This document shows positions 35,923-45,818 of a stretch of DNA of 64,000 nucleotides, piece after piece. This DNA is from Enterovibrio baiacu (GTDB lineage Bacteria; Pseudomonadota; Gammaproteobacteria; Enterobacterales; Vibrionaceae), in the NCBI RefSeq assembly GCF_004120195.1, contig NZ_SCHN01000008.1, positions 3,314-67,313 of the forward strand, in the 5' to 3' direction. Under the pieces are notes generated by a model. The model saw only the letters and a list, made by a program, of their open reading frames with translations. It searched no databases and was not told the DNA's origin. The position numbers and the translations under genes were made by a program. Every line of letters starts with the position of its first letter. The first letter of the stretch is position 1.

Positions 35923-35945
35923 TTTATTGATGCAATCTAGAGAAC

Positions 35946-35979
35946 AAAAAGCACCGCCAATTGGCGGTGCTTTTTTTTG
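35946..35979 (+). terminator. Terminator after yfeX
   Basis: The perfect palindrome AAAAAGCACCGCCAA / TTGGCGGTGCTTTTT is followed by a long T-run. Confidence 0.92.
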
Positions 35980-36219
35980 TTTTTTTGTTTTTTTTGAAAG
36001 AAGGAAAGCGCGGAAACCCTCGGAACTGCGGTGGGTGGCTGCGGGGTTTTTCTTTGAACTGTGACTGATGCAGAACAATCATTTTCGCTAAGTTTGACCA
36101 CGCTTTGCTTTTGCGACACACCATAAAAATGTCCAGTGAAACTCCCTCGACGCACCCTCATTCAGTGTGGTGATCTTCAGGGTAATAACGTTATAAAAAC
36201 AGACGTGCTGGAGAAGATC

Positions 36220-36531
36220 ATGAACATTGTTGCCATTACTGCCTGCCCTTCAGGTGTTGCCCATACTTATATGGCTGCTGAATCATTAGAACAAGCGGCG
36301 ATTGCGCGCGGTTGGACCATTAAGGTTGAAACCCAAGGTGCGCTGGGTGCGGAAAATGAAATCACATCAGACGATGTACAAAACGCCGATGCGGTCATCG
36401 TCACAACGGACATCGAATTAGCGGGAATGTCTCGCTTTGATGGCAAAACCATCATCGAAACAACGGTGAAAAAGCTGGTGGTGAATGCTGCTGAAATACT
36501 CGATGCAGCTTGCGACGTAGCGGTGGTCTAA
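36220..36531 (+). CDS. Stand-alone fructose-type PTS EIIB protein
   Basis: A 103-residue EIIB domain. Cys9 in ITACPSGVAHTYMAAE is the phosphorylation site. It closely resembles the N-terminal EIIB of the EIIBC encoded at 43127-44689 (both share the HTYMAAE and KVETQG blocks). No EIIA or EIIC is attached or adjacent on this strand. GGAGAAG lies seven bases before the ATG. It ends two bases before the GH2 gene, so the two are co-transcribed. It could accept phosphate from the EIIA of the opposite operon, or act as a phosphorylation-dependent regulator; both are inference. Confidence 0.85.
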   Translation: MNIVAITACPSGVAHTYMAAESLEQAAIARGWTIKVETQGALGAENEITSDDVQNADAVIVTTDIELAGMSRFDGKTIIETTVKKLVVNAAEILDAACDVAVV

Positions 36532-36533
36532 CG

Positions 36534-38990
36534 ATGACAATGTTGAAATTAGACGGCGAATGGCAACTCACATCTTTAATGGATGCCTCTATTGTTGCAC
36601 CTATTATGCTGCCTGGTGATGTGCACAGTGCTTTGCTTGCTGCGGACATTATTCCTGACCCTTATCTTGGCTGTAACGAAACCAAGGTGCAGTGGGTTGG
36701 CGAGCATGATTGGGTGCTTGAGAAAACCTTCACCGCCGATGCCAACCTTCTGAATGCAAAGGCTGTTGACCTGATCTTGAGCATGGTCGATACCATGGCT
36801 GAGATTGTACTGAATGGTGAAACCATCTTGCTGTGTAGCAACATGTTCCGCCATTACCGCCGCGATGTTCGTCCGTACTTATGCGACGGCGAAAACACGC
36901 TGAAAATTACGCTTAAACGCGCAGACATTGAAGCCAAAGCACGCGCAGAGCGTTTGCCTTTTCCGGTGCCTTGGGCGGTGGGAAACAACCAAATTCCACA
37001 CATGAACACCTTACGCAAAACGCAGTGCCACTCAGGGTGGGACTGGGGCATTTGCTTATTGGTGAGTGGGATTTACGACAGCATTCGTTTGCAACCTGTG
37101 TCTGAAGTGCGTCTTCAGCAGGTGCGTTCAACACAACAATGGCACAGTGACGGTAGTTGTAATGTCATGGTCATCATTTCTGCAGAACAGATCAGCCCTG
37201 ATACTGACGCTCAGATTGAATGTTGTTTGGTGGGCCCTGATGGCGAGCGCATTTCGCAATCTATCGCGTTGAGCGGCATGGAGGCGGAATGTTGTTTTCG
37301 CGTGACGCAGCCTAAACGCTGGTGGCCTGCAGGGTACGGTGAGCAACCCCTGTATACCCTGACGGTGATGACAGACGGTCAAACCATCGAGAAGCGTTTG
37401 GGGCTTCGCGAATTGTATTTAGAAACGGGCGAAGACGACGTGGGTGCGGCAATGACGTTTGTCGTCAATGACAAAGCCATCATGGCAAAAGGCGCGAACT
37501 GGATCCCGTTGGATGCGATGCCTGGCAAGCAAACGCCTGATCATTACCGCCGCTTGTTGGAAGATGCGAAAGCCGCGAACATGAACATGATCCGTGTTTG
37601 GGGTGGCGGCATGTATGAGCGCGATACCTTCTATGATCTGTGTGACGAGCTAGGTCTGTTGGTGTGGCAGGATTTGATGTTCTCATGCGCCTTGTACCCG
37701 TCGACACCGGATTTCCTTCGCGACGTAGAACAAGAGATCACAGAACAAGTTCGCCGCCTAATCGATCACCCGTCATTGGCGTTGTGGTGCGGTGATAACG
37801 AGGTGATTGGTGCAATCAATTGGTACCCTGAGTCTCGTGCGAATCGCGAAAAATACGTGGTGAATTACGATCGTTTAAGCCGTGTTTTGCAAGAAGTGGT
37901 TGAGCGTGAAGACACAAGCCGCCGTTTCTGGGCGAGCTCGCCATGTAACGGTGAGTTGGACTTTGGTGATGCATGGCATGACGACAACAAAGGTGACATG
38001 CACTTTTGGGATGTGTGGCATTCCGGCAAATCCTTCGATGCCTACAGCAGCATTAAGCCGCGTTTTTGTAGTGAGTTTGGCTATCAGTCTTGGCCGTCAT
38101 TACCAACGGTAAAAACCTTTGCATCAGAGGAAGAGTGGAACGTTACCTCTCCGACCTTTGAGCAACACCAGAAAAATAGCCGCGGAAATAGCATCATCAC
38201 TGAAATGTTCACACGCTATTTCCGTTTCCCTTCTGACTTTTCTCAGATGCTGTATTTAAGTCAGGCTCAACAAGCGCTAGCCATTAAAACGGCGAGCGAA
38301 TACTGGCGTGCGAATAAGCCGGTTTGTCGCGGCATCTTGTACTGGCAATTGAATGATTGCTGGCCTGTCAGTTCTTGGTCGAGCATCGAGTACACCGGGC
38401 GTTGGAAGCAGCTGCACTACCATGCGAAACGCTTCTTCGCGCAGCAATTGGCGGTGTTTGTGGATGAAGAAAACACGCTACGATTGAATGTGATAAACGA
38501 TGAACACCGCCGTTTGGCAGCGAAAGGCCAAGTGACATGGTATGACTGGCACGGCGAAGTGATCGACACATGGCCGATTGAGAGCATGTTGGGTGAAGAT
38601 GATAACCAGGTGGTATGGCAGTGCGACCGCAACGTGATTAACGAACGCAAGCACGAAGGCTTCTTCCATGCGGTTGTTGAGTGTGACGGTCAAATCTTTA
38701 CCAACACATGGTTTGACGATGCATACAAGCGCCTGCCACTGCCTAAAGCGAACATCGAAACCAAGGTGGAAGAGGTCGATGGTCGTGTGATGGTGACTTT
38801 GAGTACTGATAAACCCGCCTTCTTTGTCCATCCTGAATTTGATGGCGAAGGCAGTGATACCGGCCGTTTTGATGATTCAAGCGTTACCTTGTTGCCGTCA
38901 CAGCCTATTACCTTGGAATACACGGGAAATACATCTGCTGAACAGTTGAAAGCAGGGCTCACTGTGTACCATTTAGCGGCGAGCTACTGA
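36534..38990 (+). CDS. GH2 beta-mannosidase
   Basis: An 818-residue glycoside hydrolase of family GH2 with no signal peptide, hence cytoplasmic. It has an N-terminal jelly-roll (about 1-165), an Ig-like domain, and a TIM barrel with the WGGGMYE block, the acid/base Asp-Asn-Glu in LWCGDNEV, and the nucleophile Glu in CSEFGYQSWPS. The subtype matches bacterial and eukaryotic beta-mannosidases rather than beta-galactosidases. It probably splits a phosphorylated or free mannoside after uptake. The start is ATG 36534, two bases after the EIIB stop. Confidence 0.88.
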   Translation: MTMLKLDGEWQLTSLMDASIVAPIMLPGDVHSALLAADIIPDPYLGCNETKVQWVGEHDWVLEKTFTADANLLNAKAVDLILSMVDTMAEIVLNGETILLCSNMFRHYRRDVRPYLCDGENTLKITLKRADIEAKARAERLPFPVPWAVGNNQIPHMNTLRKTQCHSGWDWGICLLVSGIYDSIRLQPVSEVRLQQVRSTQQWHSDGSCNVMVIISAEQISPDTDAQIECCLVGPDGERISQSIALSGMEAECCFRVTQPKRWWPAGYGEQPLYTLTVMTDGQTIEKRLGLRELYLETGEDDVGAAMTFVVNDKAIMAKGANWIPLDAMPGKQTPDHYRRLLEDAKAANMNMIRVWGGGMYERDTFYDLCDELGLLVWQDLMFSCALYPSTPDFLRDVEQEITEQVRRLIDHPSLALWCGDNEVIGAINWYPESRANREKYVVNYDRLSRVLQEVVEREDTSRRFWASSPCNGELDFGDAWHDDNKGDMHFWDVWHSGKSFDAYSSIKPRFCSEFGYQSWPSLPTVKTFASEEEWNVTSPTFEQHQKNSRGNSIITEMFTRYFRFPSDFSQMLYLSQAQQALAIKTASEYWRANKPVCRGILYWQLNDCWPVSSWSSIEYTGRWKQLHYHAKRFFAQQLAVFVDEENTLRLNVINDEHRRLAAKGQVTWYDWHGEVIDTWPIESMLGEDDNQVVWQCDRNVINERKHEGFFHAVVECDGQIFTNTWFDDAYKRLPLPKANIETKVEEVDGRVMVTLSTDKPAFFVHPEFDGEGSDTGRFDDSSVTLLPSQPITLEYTGNTSAEQLKAGLTVYHLAASY

Positions 38991-39004: not shown

Positions 39005-39031
39005 AAAAAGCCCTCTTCGGAGGGCTTTTTC
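39005..39031. terminator. Bidirectional terminator within the mannoside cluster
   Basis: The 11-bp stem AAAAAGCCCTC / GAGGGCTTTTT with a TTCG tetraloop lies between the GH2 gene and the convergent rpiR-type regulator. Confidence 0.92.
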
Positions 39032-39076: not shown

Positions 39077-39880
39077 TTATTTTCCAAATGGTGCTTCGGT
39101 CGACACCCAGTTTTTGATGGTCTCTCGGTCAAGCGATACGTAGTGATAGTAAAGATGGTCGATGGCCATCAGCATAGGCAGTTGCGCCGAAATCATCCCT
39201 GTTCGCTCTTCACCATTTAGCGAGGCGGTAAGCAAAGTGGCTGTGGCAGATTGAGACATCTTTGATTTAGGGTTCGCCGAAATTAAATAGGTTTCAATGC
39301 CGCGGCGTGTCAGGCTTTTCACGACCTTGGCCATGTCATCATTCTGCGCATTCAAACTCAGTACGATGACAAGGTTATCGGTCGTCAGAATGTCTTGGTA
39401 CATCTGCATCGAGTTTGTGTCTTGCACCACTTCGACGAACTTGCCGAGTCGCCCAAAGCGGAACTTAAAGTCCGCCCCCGCGAGTGCACTGAATCCGGTG
39501 CCGAATACATGGATAATTTGATGCCTTGCAATGGCGTGGGTGATTTGGTCGATAACGTCGGTATCAAGGCAGTGTTTTAGCTGCTGTAAAACATCGAAAT
39601 AATCTTGCTGGAGTCCGTCATTTTCGGGCTTAGACAAAGGGTTTGCGCTGTCCAATTGCTCTTGATAAAGAAACAGGAATTCCTTGAGGTTATTCAGGCC
39701 AATTTTTTGGCAAAAACGCGTGATGGAAGCGGTGGACACGCCGATGTCCGTGGCCAGCTCTTCAATGGTTTTGACGGGGCGACGTGCGAGAAAATACCCC
39801 GCAATCTTATTGTCGGTAGTGGTGAATTTGCTCCGTGCATATTCAAACAACAATCCAATATCTTTGTTCATCAGTACCAT
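39077..39880 (-). CDS. MurR/RpiR family sugar-responsive regulator
   Basis: A 267-residue regulator with an N-terminal RpiR-type HTH (about 1-77; IGVSTASITRFCQKIGL is the DNA-reading region). A C-terminal SIS domain (about 125-250) would bind a phosphosugar. It is the last gene of the EIIBC-EIIA-GH38 operon, 45 bases after the GH38 gene, so it probably controls this cluster in response to a phosphorylated intermediate. The E. coli mng operon uses a GntR regulator instead. The start may be ATG 39880 or the internal ATG at 39871; neither has a strong ribosome site. Confidence 0.85.
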   Translation of the reverse strand: MVLMNKDIGLLFEYARSKFTTTDNKIAGYFLARRPVKTIEELATDIGVSTASITRFCQKIGLNNLKEFLFLYQEQLDSANPLSKPENDGLQQDYFDVLQQLKHCLDTDVIDQITHAIARHQIIHVFGTGFSALAGADFKFRFGRLGKFVEVVQDTNSMQMYQDILTTDNLVIVLSLNAQNDDMAKVVKSLTRRGIETYLISANPKSKMSQSATATLLTASLNGEERTGMISAQLPMLMAIDHLYYHYVSLDRETIKNWVSTEAPFGK

Positions 39881-39925: not shown

Positions 39926-42589
39926 TTAATCAAGCGTGATCTTAATGGTGCGGATTTGTTTCGCACGGAAGTCGCCAAGTTGAATCACATCGCCAGCAAC
40001 CACCAAGGTATTCAGGGTGTCGAACATCAGGTTGGTTTCTGCTGCGTGTATGAGTGCTGTATGTTTCACAGAGAGTGAGCCTGCGTTTTCGATGCTGTAT
40101 TCCGATGGATTAAACAGACGCACATGCAGGGCGTTGTTGTCGAACTGCACGCTGCTACAAACAAGCTGCGGCGCATCCAGCGTAAACAAACTGTCGCTAT
40201 CATTTACCGCGCGCTCGAGCGGATGCATGACGAAATACTTCAAGGTATTGGTGAATTGATTGAGCGTTTGTGCCTGATAGTAAGGCGTGTTCACACTCCA
40301 CGCTTGCCATTGCTGCACGGCGGCTGCTGCCGAGAACCTTGGATCGATGTGTAGACCAAGCGTGATGTGCTGGTGGCCTTTCATTTGGCTATCAGGGGTG
40401 GGGATGTATTTAAACTGCTGACCTGATGCAATCCCAGGGCGACGAAGAAGGTCAGGCTTGCCCAGCCAACCAACACTGCGGAAAAGCGTAAGGGCAAGGG
40501 TGCCGCTTGGCTGTTCCGCGTTCTCGATAAGCACTTCATACTCTTTGATGCCTTGGGCGAACACGGTCAAGCTGGCTTGCTCATCGTGCAGGTTGGCGTA
40601 GTTGATCATCGGGTAAATCCCACAAGGCTCTTCTTTCCAGCCGCGCTCGCGCCAATCCGCCAATTGCATTTGGAACAATGGGCGACGCGCAAAGCCAAAT
40701 GGCGTATCCGCAATGCTTTCTTTCGCTTTTATCGGGCTGTTAATGACCAACTGTAGGCGATGATCGTCGGCTTGATTGTCGATGACAATATCGATCTGCA
40801 AGGGTTGCTCATCGTTGGTGAGCGTCATGTTCACTGTGTATTCGCAAACGGTGTCTCGGAAACCCTGAGCGCGAGCTTCTAAGTTTTCTGGCAGCAACCA
40901 CGTGCCTTTCAAGGTCATTTGTTGTTTACATTGACCGGATTGTGTCGTGCATTCCGCGTGACTGAATGACAAGGTGATCACCCAATCATTTTCAGGTGGT
41001 GAGTAGTCGTAGGTATCGCCATCATCGCCGCCATCACGCAACGTGAAGGCTTGCGGCCAATGCTGACCTGTTTGTTTGTCAGTAAGATTCAATTCGCCGT
41101 TTTGATAGTCGAGACGGTAACGATCATTCTCGATGCATTTTCCAAGCACGGTGGGTAACACTTGCGCGTCTTTTTCGGGCATTTCTTGAATGATGAGAGA
41201 CGTAAAACCTAATGCGGGAAGCGCATGTTGAACGGCGATGTCAGTTTGGTAGTAGTAGCCATTCGGATCATTGTCTTCGGGATTGCGTTGGATGCTGCCG
41301 TTGTAGTGTTGGGTTTTTGCTAATACATCAAATTCCACGTTCTCACCCGCTAAGGTGCTTAGCGTGAAATGCGGTGACTTGGTTGAAAGTGTGATGTCTT
41401 GAACCTGATTACGGGCAACAGGCAAGGTATTGAACAGCGTCAGGCGCGCGCCGTTGTCGAGCTTTGGCTGAGAATCCGCAAGTTTACGCACTAAGTAATC
41501 TCGAGCTGCACTTGATGTTTGATCAACCTGTTCAAAACGCTCAACGATGATCTTGTTGGTTTTGTCTGTGTTGCAACCGCCGGCACTGTCGTGGGCATGG
41601 TTGCGCGTCATGATGCGCCAAAGGTTATTAATGAGTTCAGGTTGATAGCCGATACCATAACGGGTGGCGAGCGCCATAAGGGGCTCAAGCTCAAGGGTGA
41701 TGCGTCGCTCTAGCATATCGTTCAGGCGCTTGTGATCGGCGCGTGACGAGTAAATGGAACGGTGGATTTTCGATACTTGCCCGTCGATCATCTCGCCGCT
41801 CAGCGTGTCCATTGGCAGGTCTTTTACGTTAAGTGAGGCAAACAGCGTGTCGTAGCTGCTTTCAATCAGTTGGCTATCGATGTTGGCGTCTGCCAGCTTT
41901 TGATTAAACAGCGCAATGCGCTCTTTGACGTTACGATCGACAAAGCGTTGGTCGCCGCCCAGTGGCAGGGCAACGTGATCGCTAAGGCAGTCTTTTTCGA
42001 CTTGCTGGGTCAGTGAAATAGCATCGTCAGAGTAGATCAGTTGTCCACCCACGTAATAGCCATCTTTGATGTTGTAGAAAAGCACGTGGCTACCATCTTC
42101 ACTTTGCCATTGGCCTTCTCGGTGCGGATAAACGTCCGTCGACAGTCCGCGCCAAAACACCGTTTTATCGATGCCGACGCCGTTATAAATCTTTGGCATG
42201 TCCATGCTTTGACCAAAAGCGTCCGGCACATAGCCCAGCATTTCGCAGCCACCGAGTGATTCACCAAGACGAATACCCAGCTGCAGGTTTCGGATGATGG
42301 ACTCACCCGAAATGATCAGTTGATCGGTTTGGCTATACCAAGGGCCGATCTTTAGTTTTCCGCTTTCGACCAAATGACAAAAACGTTCTTTGTGTTGCGG
42401 GCAGGCCGACAAATAATCCTCTACTATGCTCAGCTGTCCATCCAAGTAGTAGTTATCTACTTCGCCCTTCTCGAGCGCGTCCATCACTTCTTCGAGGTGA
42501 TAGATCAATTGAATGAGCGATTCATGAGCGGAGAAGTACCACTCAAAATCCCAATGGGTATGGGAGATAACATGTAGTTGTTTTTTCAT
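39926..42589 (-). CDS. mngB: GH38 alpha-mannosidase, MngB-like
   Basis: An 887-residue cytoplasmic enzyme of GH38. The zinc site begins with His10, His12 and Asp14 (SHTHWDFEW), and the nucleophile is Asp123 in YVPDAFGQ. A later HDSAGGCNTD block carries the remaining zinc ligands. It matches E. coli MngB (mannosylglycerate hydrolase), which acts on 2-O-(6-phospho-mannosyl)-D-glycerate. Because two PTS genes precede it in the same operon, a PTS-imported phosphorylated alpha-mannoside is the likely substrate. Confidence 0.85.
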   Translation of the reverse strand: MKKQLHVISHTHWDFEWYFSAHESLIQLIYHLEEVMDALEKGEVDNYYLDGQLSIVEDYLSACPQHKERFCHLVESGKLKIGPWYSQTDQLIISGESIIRNLQLGIRLGESLGGCEMLGYVPDAFGQSMDMPKIYNGVGIDKTVFWRGLSTDVYPHREGQWQSEDGSHVLFYNIKDGYYVGGQLIYSDDAISLTQQVEKDCLSDHVALPLGGDQRFVDRNVKERIALFNQKLADANIDSQLIESSYDTLFASLNVKDLPMDTLSGEMIDGQVSKIHRSIYSSRADHKRLNDMLERRITLELEPLMALATRYGIGYQPELINNLWRIMTRNHAHDSAGGCNTDKTNKIIVERFEQVDQTSSAARDYLVRKLADSQPKLDNGARLTLFNTLPVARNQVQDITLSTKSPHFTLSTLAGENVEFDVLAKTQHYNGSIQRNPEDNDPNGYYYQTDIAVQHALPALGFTSLIIQEMPEKDAQVLPTVLGKCIENDRYRLDYQNGELNLTDKQTGQHWPQAFTLRDGGDDGDTYDYSPPENDWVITLSFSHAECTTQSGQCKQQMTLKGTWLLPENLEARAQGFRDTVCEYTVNMTLTNDEQPLQIDIVIDNQADDHRLQLVINSPIKAKESIADTPFGFARRPLFQMQLADWRERGWKEEPCGIYPMINYANLHDEQASLTVFAQGIKEYEVLIENAEQPSGTLALTLFRSVGWLGKPDLLRRPGIASGQQFKYIPTPDSQMKGHQHITLGLHIDPRFSAAAAVQQWQAWSVNTPYYQAQTLNQFTNTLKYFVMHPLERAVNDSDSLFTLDAPQLVCSSVQFDNNALHVRLFNPSEYSIENAGSLSVKHTALIHAAETNLMFDTLNTLVVAGDVIQLGDFRAKQIRTIKITLD

Positions 42590-42674
42590 AAACCTGTCCG
42601 CTTTGGAATGCTATCCGCAGAATGTGAAGGTGCGGCTCGGCGAGCGGCACCTTCATGTCATTGGATATGTAAAC

Positions 42675-43121
42675 TCACGCAATCACGTGTTGAATGGTAT
42701 CTAAAATGGCTTGCGTGTCGTTCTGTTGTAGCGTGTTTCGAATGTCGGGTTTCATCATGGCGCGCGATAACTTCGTCAGCATCATCAAGCTTTCTTCTGC
42801 CCCTGATTCTGGAATCGCTAACGACACTGCCGTGGTGACAGGTTCATCGTCCATGGTGTCCCATTCGATAGGGTTGGCAAAGTGCACCACAAAAATCGCC
42901 GGTGTTTTCACATGGGAGGATTTGCAGTGTGGTACGGCCATTCCGCCGAGAAAACCCGTGCTGTCATGCGACTCACGCGCTTGCAACCCACGAGCAAAAC
43001 CATCAACGCTGTCGATGTAACCCAATTGATGGGCGTGCTCGGCAATAAACTGAAACGCTTGCTGCTGAGAGGTTGAGTGAGCATCCGTCAGAATATGTTC
43101 GACGTTAAAGACGTTATTCAT
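42675..43121 (-). CDS. Fructose-type PTS EIIA protein
   Basis: A 148-residue EIIA of the fructose/mannitol family. The phosphorylated residue is His65 in GGMAVPHCKSSHV. It receives phosphate from HPr and passes it to EIIB. In E. coli MngA the IIA, IIB and IIC domains are fused; here IIA is separate. It starts five bases after the EIIBC stop and precedes the GH38 gene by 85 bases, in one operon. Confidence 0.9.
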   Translation of the reverse strand: MNNVFNVEHILTDAHSTSQQQAFQFIAEHAHQLGYIDSVDGFARGLQARESHDSTGFLGGMAVPHCKSSHVKTPAIFVVHFANPIEWDTMDDEPVTTAVSLAIPESGAEESLMMLTKLSRAMMKPDIRNTLQQNDTQAILDTIQHVIA

Positions 43122-43126
43122 GAGGT

Positions 43127-44689
43127 TTATCCATTCACTGCGGTTGAGGTGGCAACAGCGGGTGTGGCTGTTTCTGGCTGCATGGTGCTTGATATTGTGC
43201 CCGCTTCGTTTGCATCAGCGACTGGCTGTTTAGAAGGGCGTCGCCAGAATCCGATAATCATGGCGGTGGTTGCGATACCCGCGAAGGTACAGGCAATCCA
43301 CGTCACGAAAGGAATCGGCTGCTCGATGTAACCGATGAATGTCCCCAACGGAGAGCCAATACCGCCGTAGAATTTCACGTCCAAGTAACCCACAAGGCCA
43401 CCGGCTAGGGCTGAACCTGCCACACTGGCGGTGATGATTTGAACAGGGTTTGCCGCAGCAAACGGAATAGCACCTTCAGTTACCCCAACAATACCCATAC
43501 CGAACGCAGAGTTTGCAGAAACTTTTTCAGTGTCTGTGAAGCGGTTTTTAAACAGTTTTGATGCCAAGAAGATACCCAGTGGCGCGACAGAAATAGCCGC
43601 TTGCGCTGCGGTGCCTGGTACAAAGTTAGCGCCTTCAATGCCGTATTTTGCAACGGTGTCTGTCCACACGGCAGTACCGAAAATCAGTGCCGTTTTGTTG
43701 ACTGGGCCACCGAAGTCGAAGCCGATCATTGCACCAATAATGGCACCGATAATGAAGGTAGACGCGCCGTAGGTGTTGGTTAGCCAGTTTAGGCCTTCAT
43801 AGAGCGCGCTCATTGCGCCCGCGATAGGCTGGCCAATGAAATACAGCACAACAACGGTAATGAAGAAGGTCGCGATCAACGGAATGATCATGATTGGAAC
43901 AAGGGGTTGAAGCAATTTCGGCCATTTGATTTTCTTTAGTTGCTTCACGAAGTAGCCGACAAGGAAAGCAACAAGAATGGCTGACAGGAAGCCGCCACCT
44001 GCGTCTGTCCCCAGGAATGCAGGGTCATTCGCCATGTATGCGCCTAACATAGCTGGTGCGATAGCTGGACGATCTGCGATGGAGTTTGCCACGAAGCCTG
44101 CGAACAATGGAATCATCAGCAAGAAGCCGATTTGACCCACTTTGAACAAGTGCGCCATGAAGTAACCGAGTGGTTCTGTTTGGTCAAAGCCCCAAGCGAC
44201 CATACGGCCTAGGTCATCACGTTGGAAGGCAAAAATGTTCGCGATGGCCAACAACAAACCCGCAGCAATAACCATAGGTACCATGTAAGAGATACCGCTC
44301 ATGATGTGCTGAACAAAACCGTTTTCAGTGGTTTTACCCAAGGTTACGTTACCGACTTTTGTGCCTTTCGCACCAAAGACAGTCGCGTTTTCTTCGGCTT
44401 CTTTGATGAGTGCCATGGCGTCGCGAATCGCGGCTTTTGGACGCGCCTTGTAAACACGTTTCCCTGCAAAGCGAGCAAGATCAATTTCAATGTCAGAGGC
44501 GATGATCACCAGTTCTGCATCGTTAATTTCTTGTTCTGTTAAAACATTCTGCGCACCGATTGAACCTTGGGTTTCAACCTTTACAAAAAAATTGTGTTCT
44601 TTGCCAGCTTGCTCGAGGGCTTCAGCTGCCATGTAAGTGTGAGCAATACCAGCAGCACAGGCGGTTATCGCAACAACATTTTTGGTCAT
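43127..44689 (-). CDS. Fructose-type PTS EIIBC permease, MngA-like
   Basis: A 520-residue transporter. The N-terminal EIIB has Cys11 (ITACAAGIAHTYMAAE), followed by a linker and a membrane EIIC domain with about nine helices. The EIIC contains the DFGGPVNKTA and GVTEGAIPFAA motifs of the fructose family. Given the GH38 partner it is likely specific for 2-O-alpha-mannosyl-D-glycerate or a related mannoside. The last 30 residues are a Thr/Ala-rich tail. GGAGAA lies upstream of the ATG. It is the first gene of the minus-strand operon and is divergent from the AraC-type regulator. Confidence 0.88.
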   Translation of the reverse strand: MTKNVVAITACAAGIAHTYMAAEALEQAGKEHNFFVKVETQGSIGAQNVLTEQEINDAELVIIASDIEIDLARFAGKRVYKARPKAAIRDAMALIKEAEENATVFGAKGTKVGNVTLGKTTENGFVQHIMSGISYMVPMVIAAGLLLAIANIFAFQRDDLGRMVAWGFDQTEPLGYFMAHLFKVGQIGFLLMIPLFAGFVANSIADRPAIAPAMLGAYMANDPAFLGTDAGGGFLSAILVAFLVGYFVKQLKKIKWPKLLQPLVPIMIIPLIATFFITVVVLYFIGQPIAGAMSALYEGLNWLTNTYGASTFIIGAIIGAMIGFDFGGPVNKTALIFGTAVWTDTVAKYGIEGANFVPGTAAQAAISVAPLGIFLASKLFKNRFTDTEKVSANSAFGMGIVGVTEGAIPFAAANPVQIITASVAGSALAGGLVGYLDVKFYGGIGSPLGTFIGYIEQPIPFVTWIACTFAGIATTAMIIGFWRRPSKQPVADANEAGTISSTMQPETATPAVATSTAVNG

Positions 44690-44790
44690 GAGGTTCTCCT
44701 TCTACGACCTTCAAATAGGGTTTTGGCATAAGAATGATGAAAATATTTCCAATTTAAGACTGTGATTGAACGCATATTAGTCATTTTGTT

Positions 44791-44876
44791 GTAAATATTT
44801 ACAGTTAAAGGGTGCTATCCATCATGGAAATTTTCTCAAAACACTGTAAATTTTTTCACCGTAAACTGAACAGTTA
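44791..44876. promoter_or_regulatory. Cluster of palindromes between the EIIBC and araC-type genes
   Basis: The 235-base divergent intergenic region holds a perfect 12-bp palindrome GTAAATATTTAC (44791-44802). It also has the octamer pair TTTACAGT (44798-44805) and ACTGTAAA (44843-44850) in opposite orientation, and AACTGAACAGTT (44864-44875). All share TTTACAGTT-like half-sites, which suggests operator DNA for one of the two local regulators. This is sequence-based inference only. Confidence 0.4.
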
Positions 44877-44924
44877 GTGTTCTCGTGAATGTATTTTCAC
44901 ATCCAACAATGAGAGTGATGCCTA

Positions 44925-45818
44925 ATGCCCAACACGACTAACCAGCCCGACACATTTTCATATTTGGTGCTTTCAGAGATTGCAGGTCGTCTAGATGGAA
45001 AGCTCAATGCGGAATATCACCACGCATTGCCATGCAATGACATGCCGTTGTTGGCATGGTGCACGCCAGACGAAAGAGTTGAAATTGTTGTGGAAGGGGC
45101 CGTGGACATGATGTTCAGTCACGGTGGTGGGGAGCGAGGTGTGGTGCGCATGCAGCCTGGCGATGTACTTCGTGTTGCGGCTCACGGTTGGAATTTGCCG
45201 TACGCGGATGAGGCAAATACCTTGAGCATTTGTTGTCGCGGTGAAAAACTTGGTCTGAGTTATAACCATTGGCAAGATGGCCGTTGCATCAGTTTGGCGA
45301 AATGGGCGATGCCGCTAACCTCTCTCAATGCGTTGCTGCTTGGCTTAACGTCAGATGTTAGGGGATTAAACGATGTGAAGCTTGATGTATTGTTACGGGC
45401 GATCTCTCGCAAGCTCAGCGCCAATGCCTCAGATGTGTCTAAACAAAAACAGCTCTTTCATCAGATTCTGACTTACATGCGCTGCCATTTTCATGAGTCG
45501 ATATGCCGAGAGTCGGTTGCCGAGCATTTCTGTATTTCATCAAGTTACCTTTCTCACCTGTTTCAGCAGCACAGCGACATTGGCTTTAACGAGTACATCA
45601 ATCGAGAACGTTTTGCTCATGCCCGACACCTGTTGATTGAAAAAGGCCTGCGCGTGAAACAGGTGGCGCTGGAAAGTGGGTTTGTGGATGCAGATTACTT
45701 TTGTCGCTTGTTTAAAAGGCTAGCAGGGATGACCCCAACGCAATATCGACAGCATTACATTAGCCAACAGCAGAGCTTTTCTCATGAGTTTTCTCACGAC
45801 GCTGTTGTGACGAGTTAA
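44925..45818 (+). CDS. AraC-family transcriptional regulator
   Basis: A 297-residue protein. The N-terminal half (about 1-150) is a cupin-like sensor (MQPGDVLRVAAHGWNLPYAD block). The C-terminal AraC DNA-binding domain (about 185-280) has two HTH motifs, the second ending with the family signature DADYFCRLFKRLAGMTPTQYR. It is divergent from the EIIBC gene, so it most likely activates or represses the mannoside operon. Its start lies 235 bases from the EIIBC start. Confidence 0.88.
   Translation: MPNTTNQPDTFSYLVLSEIAGRLDGKLNAEYHHALPCNDMPLLAWCTPDERVEIVVEGAVDMMFSHGGGERGVVRMQPGDVLRVAAHGWNLPYADEANTLSICCRGEKLGLSYNHWQDGRCISLAKWAMPLTSLNALLLGLTSDVRGLNDVKLDVLLRAISRKLSANASDVSKQKQLFHQILTYMRCHFHESICRESVAEHFCISSSYLSHLFQQHSDIGFNEYINRERFAHARHLLIEKGLRVKQVALESGFVDADYFCRLFKRLAGMTPTQYRQHYISQQQSFSHEFSHDAVVTS

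Follow-up and report, generated by a model that had tools for sequence, protein, structure and literature searches.

Free EIIB proteins of the fructose family of the phosphotransferase system (PTS) that lack a dedicated EIIC are already known, for example FrwD of Escherichia coli and VC1823 of Vibrio cholerae. For the Frw proteins of E. coli, the annotation does not go beyond "putative" and "fructose-like". VC1823 belongs to the mannose regulon of the AraC-type protein ManR, which exerts its control via AATCC boxes, and the gene following VC1823 encodes an EIIA (PMC9392796). Another free EIIB is encoded in Enterovibrio baiacu, on a stretch of 64,000 nucleotides (contig NZ_SCHN01000008.1, positions 3,314 to 67,313 of the forward strand), the whole of which is referred to below as "the window." The gene for this EIIB is located directly upstream of a gene for a glycoside hydrolase of family 2 (GH2), a predicted beta-mannosidase, and the connection to a beta-mannosidase is the new element compared to the known free EIIBs, as far as the literature searches indicate. 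Titles and the opening parts of abstracts yielded no description of an EIIB tied to a beta-mannosidase, nothing under the term "orphan EIIB," and nothing on an operon that combines a beta-mannosidase with a glycosylasparaginase. A preliminary description of this DNA had called a free EIIB tied to a glycosidase unusual, which applies to the glycosidase but, in view of FrwD and VC1823, not to the free EIIB as such.

The FrwB proteins of E. coli and the Vibrionaceae are, like the EIIB of the window, stand-alone EIIBs of the fructose family of about 105 aa with the same P-loop, CPSGVAHTYMAAE. E. coli FrwB and the window EIIB are 57% identical (53/93), and a gene for FrwB is present in Photobacterium near the same set of GH2 and ABC transporter genes that accompanies the EIIB in relatives. 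FrwB, however, adjoins the EIIC protein FrwC, whereas the window EIIB has no adjacent EIIC, remained under the cut-off for FrwB, and belongs to another branch. E. coli FrwD is free like the window EIIB, has no EIIC of its own, and is encoded beside genes for enzymes (pflD, pflC). In the PDB, the window EIIB was matched best by 4tn5 (7.6e-24), a structure that corresponds to E. coli FrwD over its full length (2.9e-71), and the window EIIB and FrwD have the motifs TDIELAG and ETQGALG in common. Their identity is nevertheless only 44% (41/94), and the frw locus of FrwD also holds FrwC and FrwB. With respect to VC1823, its gene order is resembled by a locus at C6:227 kb of the window genome according to the comparison made here, and the EIIB of this locus is 44% identical (42/95) to that of the window.

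Conservation of the EIIB-GH2 gene pair

Open reading frames and family models confirmed what had been noticed in the preliminary description, an EIIB with its phosphorylatable Cys that precedes a GH2 beta-mannosidase gene by two bases. They also confirmed that neither an EIIA nor an EIIC is encoded on the same strand: the + strand proteins of the window that were scanned included 0 EIIA and 0 EIIC, and the EIIBC of the window and its EIIA are both encoded on the − strand (Table 1). A fructose-type EIIC query found five places in the window genome, and the only one of these in the window is this EIIBC.

The EIIB was present in 8 of the 18 genomes of the genus, that of the window included, with identities of 79 to 100%; apart from these carriers, the genus offered no match above 56%. 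All eight carriers contain the EIIB gene directly 5' of GH2, and Cys9 and the P-loop were intact in all of them, the orthologues having been identified by a search without a motif containing this Cys. Two nucleotides separate the EIIB stop codon from the ATG of GH2 in the window, and a gap of this size was present in seven of the eight carriers; in G081, the sequence differs after the EIIB stop. The two genes may be part of a single transcript. The ratio of nonsynonymous to synonymous substitution rates (dN/dS, Nei-Gojobori) of the EIIB gene was between 0.019 and 0.161 in 24 of 28 genome pairs, with a saturated dS in the other four, and these low values indicate that the EIIB is under purifying selection. 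As judged from the sequence comparisons, the EIIB gene is a live gene and not a decaying copy, and given its conservation and dN/dS, the pairing with GH2 is more than chance. A loss of Cys9 in relatives, which would have pointed to a non-expressed duplicate according to the preliminary description, was looked for and did not occur, so that the idea was not refuted.

The partner of the EIIB is a beta-mannosidase by its domains and catalytic Glu residues, and activity on beta-mannosides is predicted. The Pfam domains Glyco_hydro_2_N2 and Ig_mannosidase were present, while the score for Glyco_hydro_2_C was 20.2 bits and thereby slightly under the cut-off of 21. Solved beta-mannosidases were matched nearly end to end (6bye, 9.8e-154; 2vjx, 2.5e-135), with Glu423 and Glu514 in register, and it is the combination of GH2 and mannosidase Ig domains with these two putative catalytic residues that assigns the protein to the beta-mannosidases. 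In 6byi and 6byg, which are further entries of the 6bye protein, one or the other putative catalytic position is occupied by Ala.

GH2 was found in 16 of the 18 genomes of the genus, eight of which do not contain the EIIB, and the two genomes without both genes comprise 2.1 and 2.6 Mb. In seven of the eight EIIB-lacking genomes with GH2, this gene follows the same gene for a DyP peroxidase as in the window, and the contig of the eighth ends before the position of the DyP gene. The sequence CTCGAC, at position 36146 of the window, was conserved in all 15 upstream regions that were aligned, eight with and seven without the EIIB (the alignment left out G055, the eighth EIIB-lacking genome). Since CTCGAC is common to regions with and without the EIIB, GH2 is separated by the EIIB gene from an old control region. 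In a tree of 23 GH2 rows, which left out G078 and G081, the EIIB-lacking genomes G041 and G067 were nested among the carriers, and the other six EIIB-lacking genomes formed a sister group. The EIIB may have been gained once and lost once, may be an older gene that was lost twice, or may have been gained on two occasions. As a separate observation, GH2 and several neighboring genes were in pieces in G078 and G081 (L152 and L155), with the EIIB reading frame open; both genomes are listed with a contamination of 6 and 5%, respectively, and sequence errors are one possible reason for the broken genes.

Beyond the genus, samples of genomes were surveyed at the level of the class, order, and family. 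The class-wide survey of 369 genomes gave a match, at E values up to 1e-26, only in the window genome itself (1/369). From the order-wide survey of 394 genomes, 29 EIIB rows of the best loci were put into the tree described below, and none of the 29 joined the branch of the orphan EIIBs. Among the matches listed for 296 genomes of the Vibrionaceae, the best ones beyond the eight carriers had identities of 58% or less.

Family placement of the EIIB

By model score and P-loop Cys, the EIIB is a member of the fructose family of PTS EIIBs, and phosphotransfer from EIIA to EIIB to EIIC is predicted. The scores were above the cut-offs of TIGR00829 (118.7 bits; cut-off, 76.85) and Pfam PF02302 (75.1; cut-off, 23.6), and the phosphorylatable residue is Cys9 within TACPSGVAHT. 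The equivalog models of FrwB and FrwD were not reached: PRK10474 resulted in 128 versus 135 (E. coli FrwB, 210.4) and PRK10427 in 110.7 versus 153 (E. coli FrwD, 224.1). The EIIB domain of the window EIIBC, of which the EIIB had been regarded as a near twin, was 44% identical (45/102). This is less than the 54% (51/94) shared with an unlinked, stand-alone FrwB-like EIIB at C28:498 kb of the window genome, and the notion of a near twin had to be abandoned.

In a tree of 98 rows, the 8 rows of orphan EIIBs clustered among themselves (99/98). The EIIBC domain was not part of this cluster, and neither the FrwB branch (40 rows, 100/98) nor the FrwD branch (14 rows, 99/93) included any of the orphans. 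Approximately unbiased (AU) tests rejected none of the three unions of the orphans, with FrwD (P = 0.20), FrwB (0.31), or EIIBC (0.32). The orphan EIIB appears to form a separate branch, and its nearest relative may be FrwD, FrwB, or EIIBC. The presence of the Cys in all 98 rows is partly due to construction, because the rows had been collected by a motif holding this Cys. Seven positions (S22, R30, L42, T63, L67, L86, and V88) split 8/8 orphans from at least 90% of the 40 FrwB proteins, and T63 adjoins the conserved D64-I65. The P-loop residues match those of the EIIBs involved in transport. An identity of the EIIB with FrwD was considered on the basis of a tree of 69 EIIBs with a single FrwD, in which the orphan joined E. 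coli FrwD (98/97; FrwD branch, 2.37), and was withdrawn; the union was gone once 14 FrwD proteins were among the 98 rows.

Genes accompanying EIIB and GH2 in relatives

In six of the eight carriers (G031, G036, G059, and G051 and, in pieces, G078 and G081), GH2 is followed by an ABC transporter gene set. This set encodes a family-5 binding protein, OppB, OppC, OppD, OppF, an M17 aminopeptidase, and an Asparaginase_2 protein; G081 has no open reading frame labeled OppD or OppF. The binding protein resembles the chitin oligosaccharide binding protein of V. cholerae (1zty, 2.2e-260). The best PDB matches of the Asparaginase_2 protein are glycosylasparaginases (1.6e-33), and its sole NCBIfam match, beta-aspartyl-peptidase, is far under the cut-off (110.5 versus 567). 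The set following GH2 may represent an N-glycopeptide operon in several Vibrionaceae, and the families of its members suggest that EIIB, GH2, and the ABC set together might serve the uptake and trimming of N-glycan or glycopeptide cores.

Genes for a chitin-oligosaccharide-type ABC transporter, M17, and the glycosylasparaginase-like protein follow GH2 in a row at L154:5734-13853 and in relatives. In the window genome (C6:209959-218186, L190) and in G063 (contig C44, L192), the ABC-M17-glycosylasparaginase-like set is located on another contig, apart from EIIB-GH2. Compared with the M17 protein of L154, that of the unlinked set is 69% identical, and those of G031 and G036 are 89 to 90% identical. 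A deletion of the ABC set from the window was considered and dropped, as the set is present on another contig of the same genome. A similar ABC set, also elsewhere in the genome, was found in the EIIB-lacking G041 and G067. G054, which belongs to another genus (g12), contains GH2 and the whole ABC set without an EIIB.

In Photobacterium (g7), an FrwC-FrwB-AraC cassette is positioned 5' of GH2 and a comparable ABC set, as followed gene by gene in G056, G122, G126, and G060; this reading revealed no OppD or OppF, and the last stretch ends in M17. According to the coordinates, 11 Photobacterium genomes among the matches listed contain an EIIB less than 2 kb 5' of GH2 on the same strand. The cassette is near GH2 and a gene for an RpiR protein in G124 and G149. 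An assignment of the EIIC-EIIB-AraC cassette to Fry was rejected; the fry and frw genes of E. coli and the family models indicated that it is Frw-like.

Frw-type PTS and mannose genes elsewhere in the genome

The window genome contains an FrwC-FrwB-AraC locus at C28:498 kb, which is preceded by five genes in a row for GH92 alpha-mannosidases (5/5 scanned as GH92). Before this row, at 481 kb, an EIIB and an HPr-EI-EIIA protein are encoded, and the whole stretch comprises C28:480.9-500 kb (L195, L159). The GH92-Frw neighborhood suggests a mannose role for the Frw-type PTS. The AraC protein of this locus is 47% identical to the AraC protein encoded at C6:227-233 kb, together with an EIIB, an EIIA-like protein, an EIIABC protein, and a mannose-6-phosphate isomerase, and the window AraC protein is 27% identical to that of the FrwC-FrwB cassette. 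FrwC was present in 16 of the 18 genomes of the genus, two times in pieces, and these include eight genomes without the orphan EIIB. Within the Vibrionaceae, genes of the Frw-type PTS thus occur in the company of mannosidase and mannose genes, and the contexts, which are the GH92 run, GH2, the glycosylasparaginase-like gene, and an AraC protein related to that encoded beside mannose-6-phosphate isomerase, point to mannose from glycans as a candidate substrate.

Possible function of the EIIB

The interpretation preferred here, albeit as a tentative one, is that the EIIB might assist a fructose-family PTS for mannose or mannosides as a soluble auxiliary subunit, using an EIIC encoded elsewhere. 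Phosphate would be transferred from phosphoenolpyruvate via EI, HPr, and the EIIA of the neighboring operon, the nearest possible donor in the window, to Cys9 of the EIIB. The phosphorylated EIIB may then deliver the phosphate to a sugar at an unlinked EIIC, most likely of the FrwC type at C28:498 kb or otherwise at the adjacent EIIBC. In sister species, the EIIB would head an operon composed of EIIB, GH2, the ABC transporter, M17, and the glycosylasparaginase-like enzyme, the task of which may be import and trimming of mannosylated cores of glycans or glycopeptides. This interpretation is based on the model score of the EIIB, Cys9, the dN/dS values, the tie to GH2, the ABC set, the cassette in Photobacterium, the GH92-Frw locus, and the EIIA, GH38, and EIIBC genes next door.

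Evaluation of an auxiliary function in transport also needs to consider what weighs against it. The EIIB scored under the cut-offs for FrwB and FrwD and is outside the FrwB branch, which makes the pairing with FrwC a guess. FrwC has an FrwB of its own and occurs without the orphan EIIB, so that co-occurrence does not single FrwC out. GH2 beta-mannosidases are generally known to act on unphosphorylated sugars, and the product of a PTS thus need not be the substrate of the enzyme. The AATCC box known from V. cholerae ManR was absent from 35923-36219 on either strand and from 44690-44924, and the label glycosylasparaginase depends on the PDB match.

As the main alternative, although a rather unlikely one, the EIIB may be regulatory. 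It would take over PTS phosphate without passing it on to a sugar, and its phosphorylation state or its binding to a partner would inform RpiR, AraC, or the glycosidase/ABC operon about the flow through the PTS. The gene row of the EIIB in six of the eight genomes imports by an ABC transporter and not by an EIIC, an EIIC does not adjoin, the EIIB is fixed in the first position before GH2 in all carriers, and the orphan-specific positions that separate it from FrwB include T63 beside D64-I65. Against a regulatory role, Pfam found no PTS regulation domain (PRD) in the RpiR and AraC proteins of the window, and the P-loop is the same as in transport EIIBs. The more specific possibility that the EIIB would be a sensor of the phosphate state, coupling the ABC-fed operon for mannosylated glycopeptide cores to the state of the mannose PTS without any part in transport, is unlikely. 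The free EIIB could reveal in what way the PTS is coupled to a glycan operon that is fed by an ABC transporter. The gain in knowledge is modest, with one genus concerned and roles read from sequence and context.

A function as second EIIB of the neighboring alpha-mannoside EIIBC, either for an extra flow of phosphate or in competition, is improbable. The EIIBC was found in 10 of the 18 genomes, which are all eight carriers of the EIIB plus G041 and G067 (87% identity), so that the EIIB occurs in 8/10 genomes with and in 0/8 genomes without the EIIBC, and the EIIA gene adjoins the EIIBC. This co-occurrence follows a single split in the GH2 tree and counts as about one event. Moreover, G041 and G067 do without the EIIB, and the EIIBC gene contains a stop in G078 and is in pieces in G081. 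The EIIBC retains its own Cys11, and the EIIB and the built-in domain, at 44% identity, are on different branches, even though their union was not rejected by the AU test (P = 0.32). The suggestion of the preliminary description that the EIIB may replace or compete with the built-in domain is thus left unsupported.

A functionless leftover of a split PTS of the FrwC-FrwB type, kept by linkage, would agree with the missing EIIC nearby, with the EIIC and EIIB genes before the same GH2 in Photobacterium, and with the eight of 16 GH2-bearing genomes that do without the EIIB, but it is very improbable in view of the selection test, the intact Cys and P-loop in all eight carriers, and the position of the EIIB off the Photobacterium FrwB branch.

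Neighboring genes and upstream DNA

Table 1. Features in and around the EIIB-GH2 gene pair (positions in the window)
Feature	Position	Strand	Basis
Upstream region of the EIIB-GH2 pair: DyP-side hairpin, then CTCGAC stretch	35923..36219	+	
Free fructose-family EIIB, 103 aa, predicted phospho-Cys at residue 9	36220..36531	+	Open reading frame and family models
GH2 beta-mannosidase (predicted), 818 aa; putative catalytic Glu423 and Glu514	36534..38990	+	Pfam, PDB alignments
Hairpin AAAAAGCCCTC-TTCG-GAGGGCTTTTT between GH2 and the converging rpiR	39005..39030	.	By eye; absent from the output of the hairpin scan
RpiR-type regulator with SIS domain	39077..39880	−	Domain scan
GH38 alpha-mannosidase, MngB-like	39926..42589	−	Family models
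Fructose-type EIIA, His65 in PHC motif	42675..43121	−	Family models
Fructose-type EIIBC, own EIIB domain with Cys11	43127..44689	−	Family models
AraC-type regulator beside the EIIBC operon	44925..45818	+	Domain scan

The hairpin scan identified a terminator hairpin on the DyP side at 35946-35975. An upstream pattern drawn from the relatives had no match in the window at three mismatches; the window does carry CTCGAC and TGTGGTGATCT, at a spacing different from that in the pattern of the relatives. A scan for consensus promoters resulted in two sites versus a mean of 4.0 in shuffled sequences, which is fewer than in the shuffles.

Beyond the EIIBC, genes for the AraC protein, crr, and ptsI are present. 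The − strand operon is comparable to MngA/MngB of E. coli in that a fructose-family PTS is paired with a GH38 enzyme. It differs by the split into EIIBC and EIIA, by identities of 30 to 33% (GH38, 33% to MngB), and by RpiR instead of MngR, and the GH38 score of 736.5 bits is below the cut-off of 1138 for mannosylglycerate hydrolase. Two PTS-GH38 systems exist in the window genome, that of the window at 39926-44689 and another one at C8:88 kb (L006), which is the nearer relative of MngA with a GH38. The EIIB of the C8 system groups with E. coli MngA (100/99), so that the PTS-GH38 system of the window may serve another alpha-mannoside.

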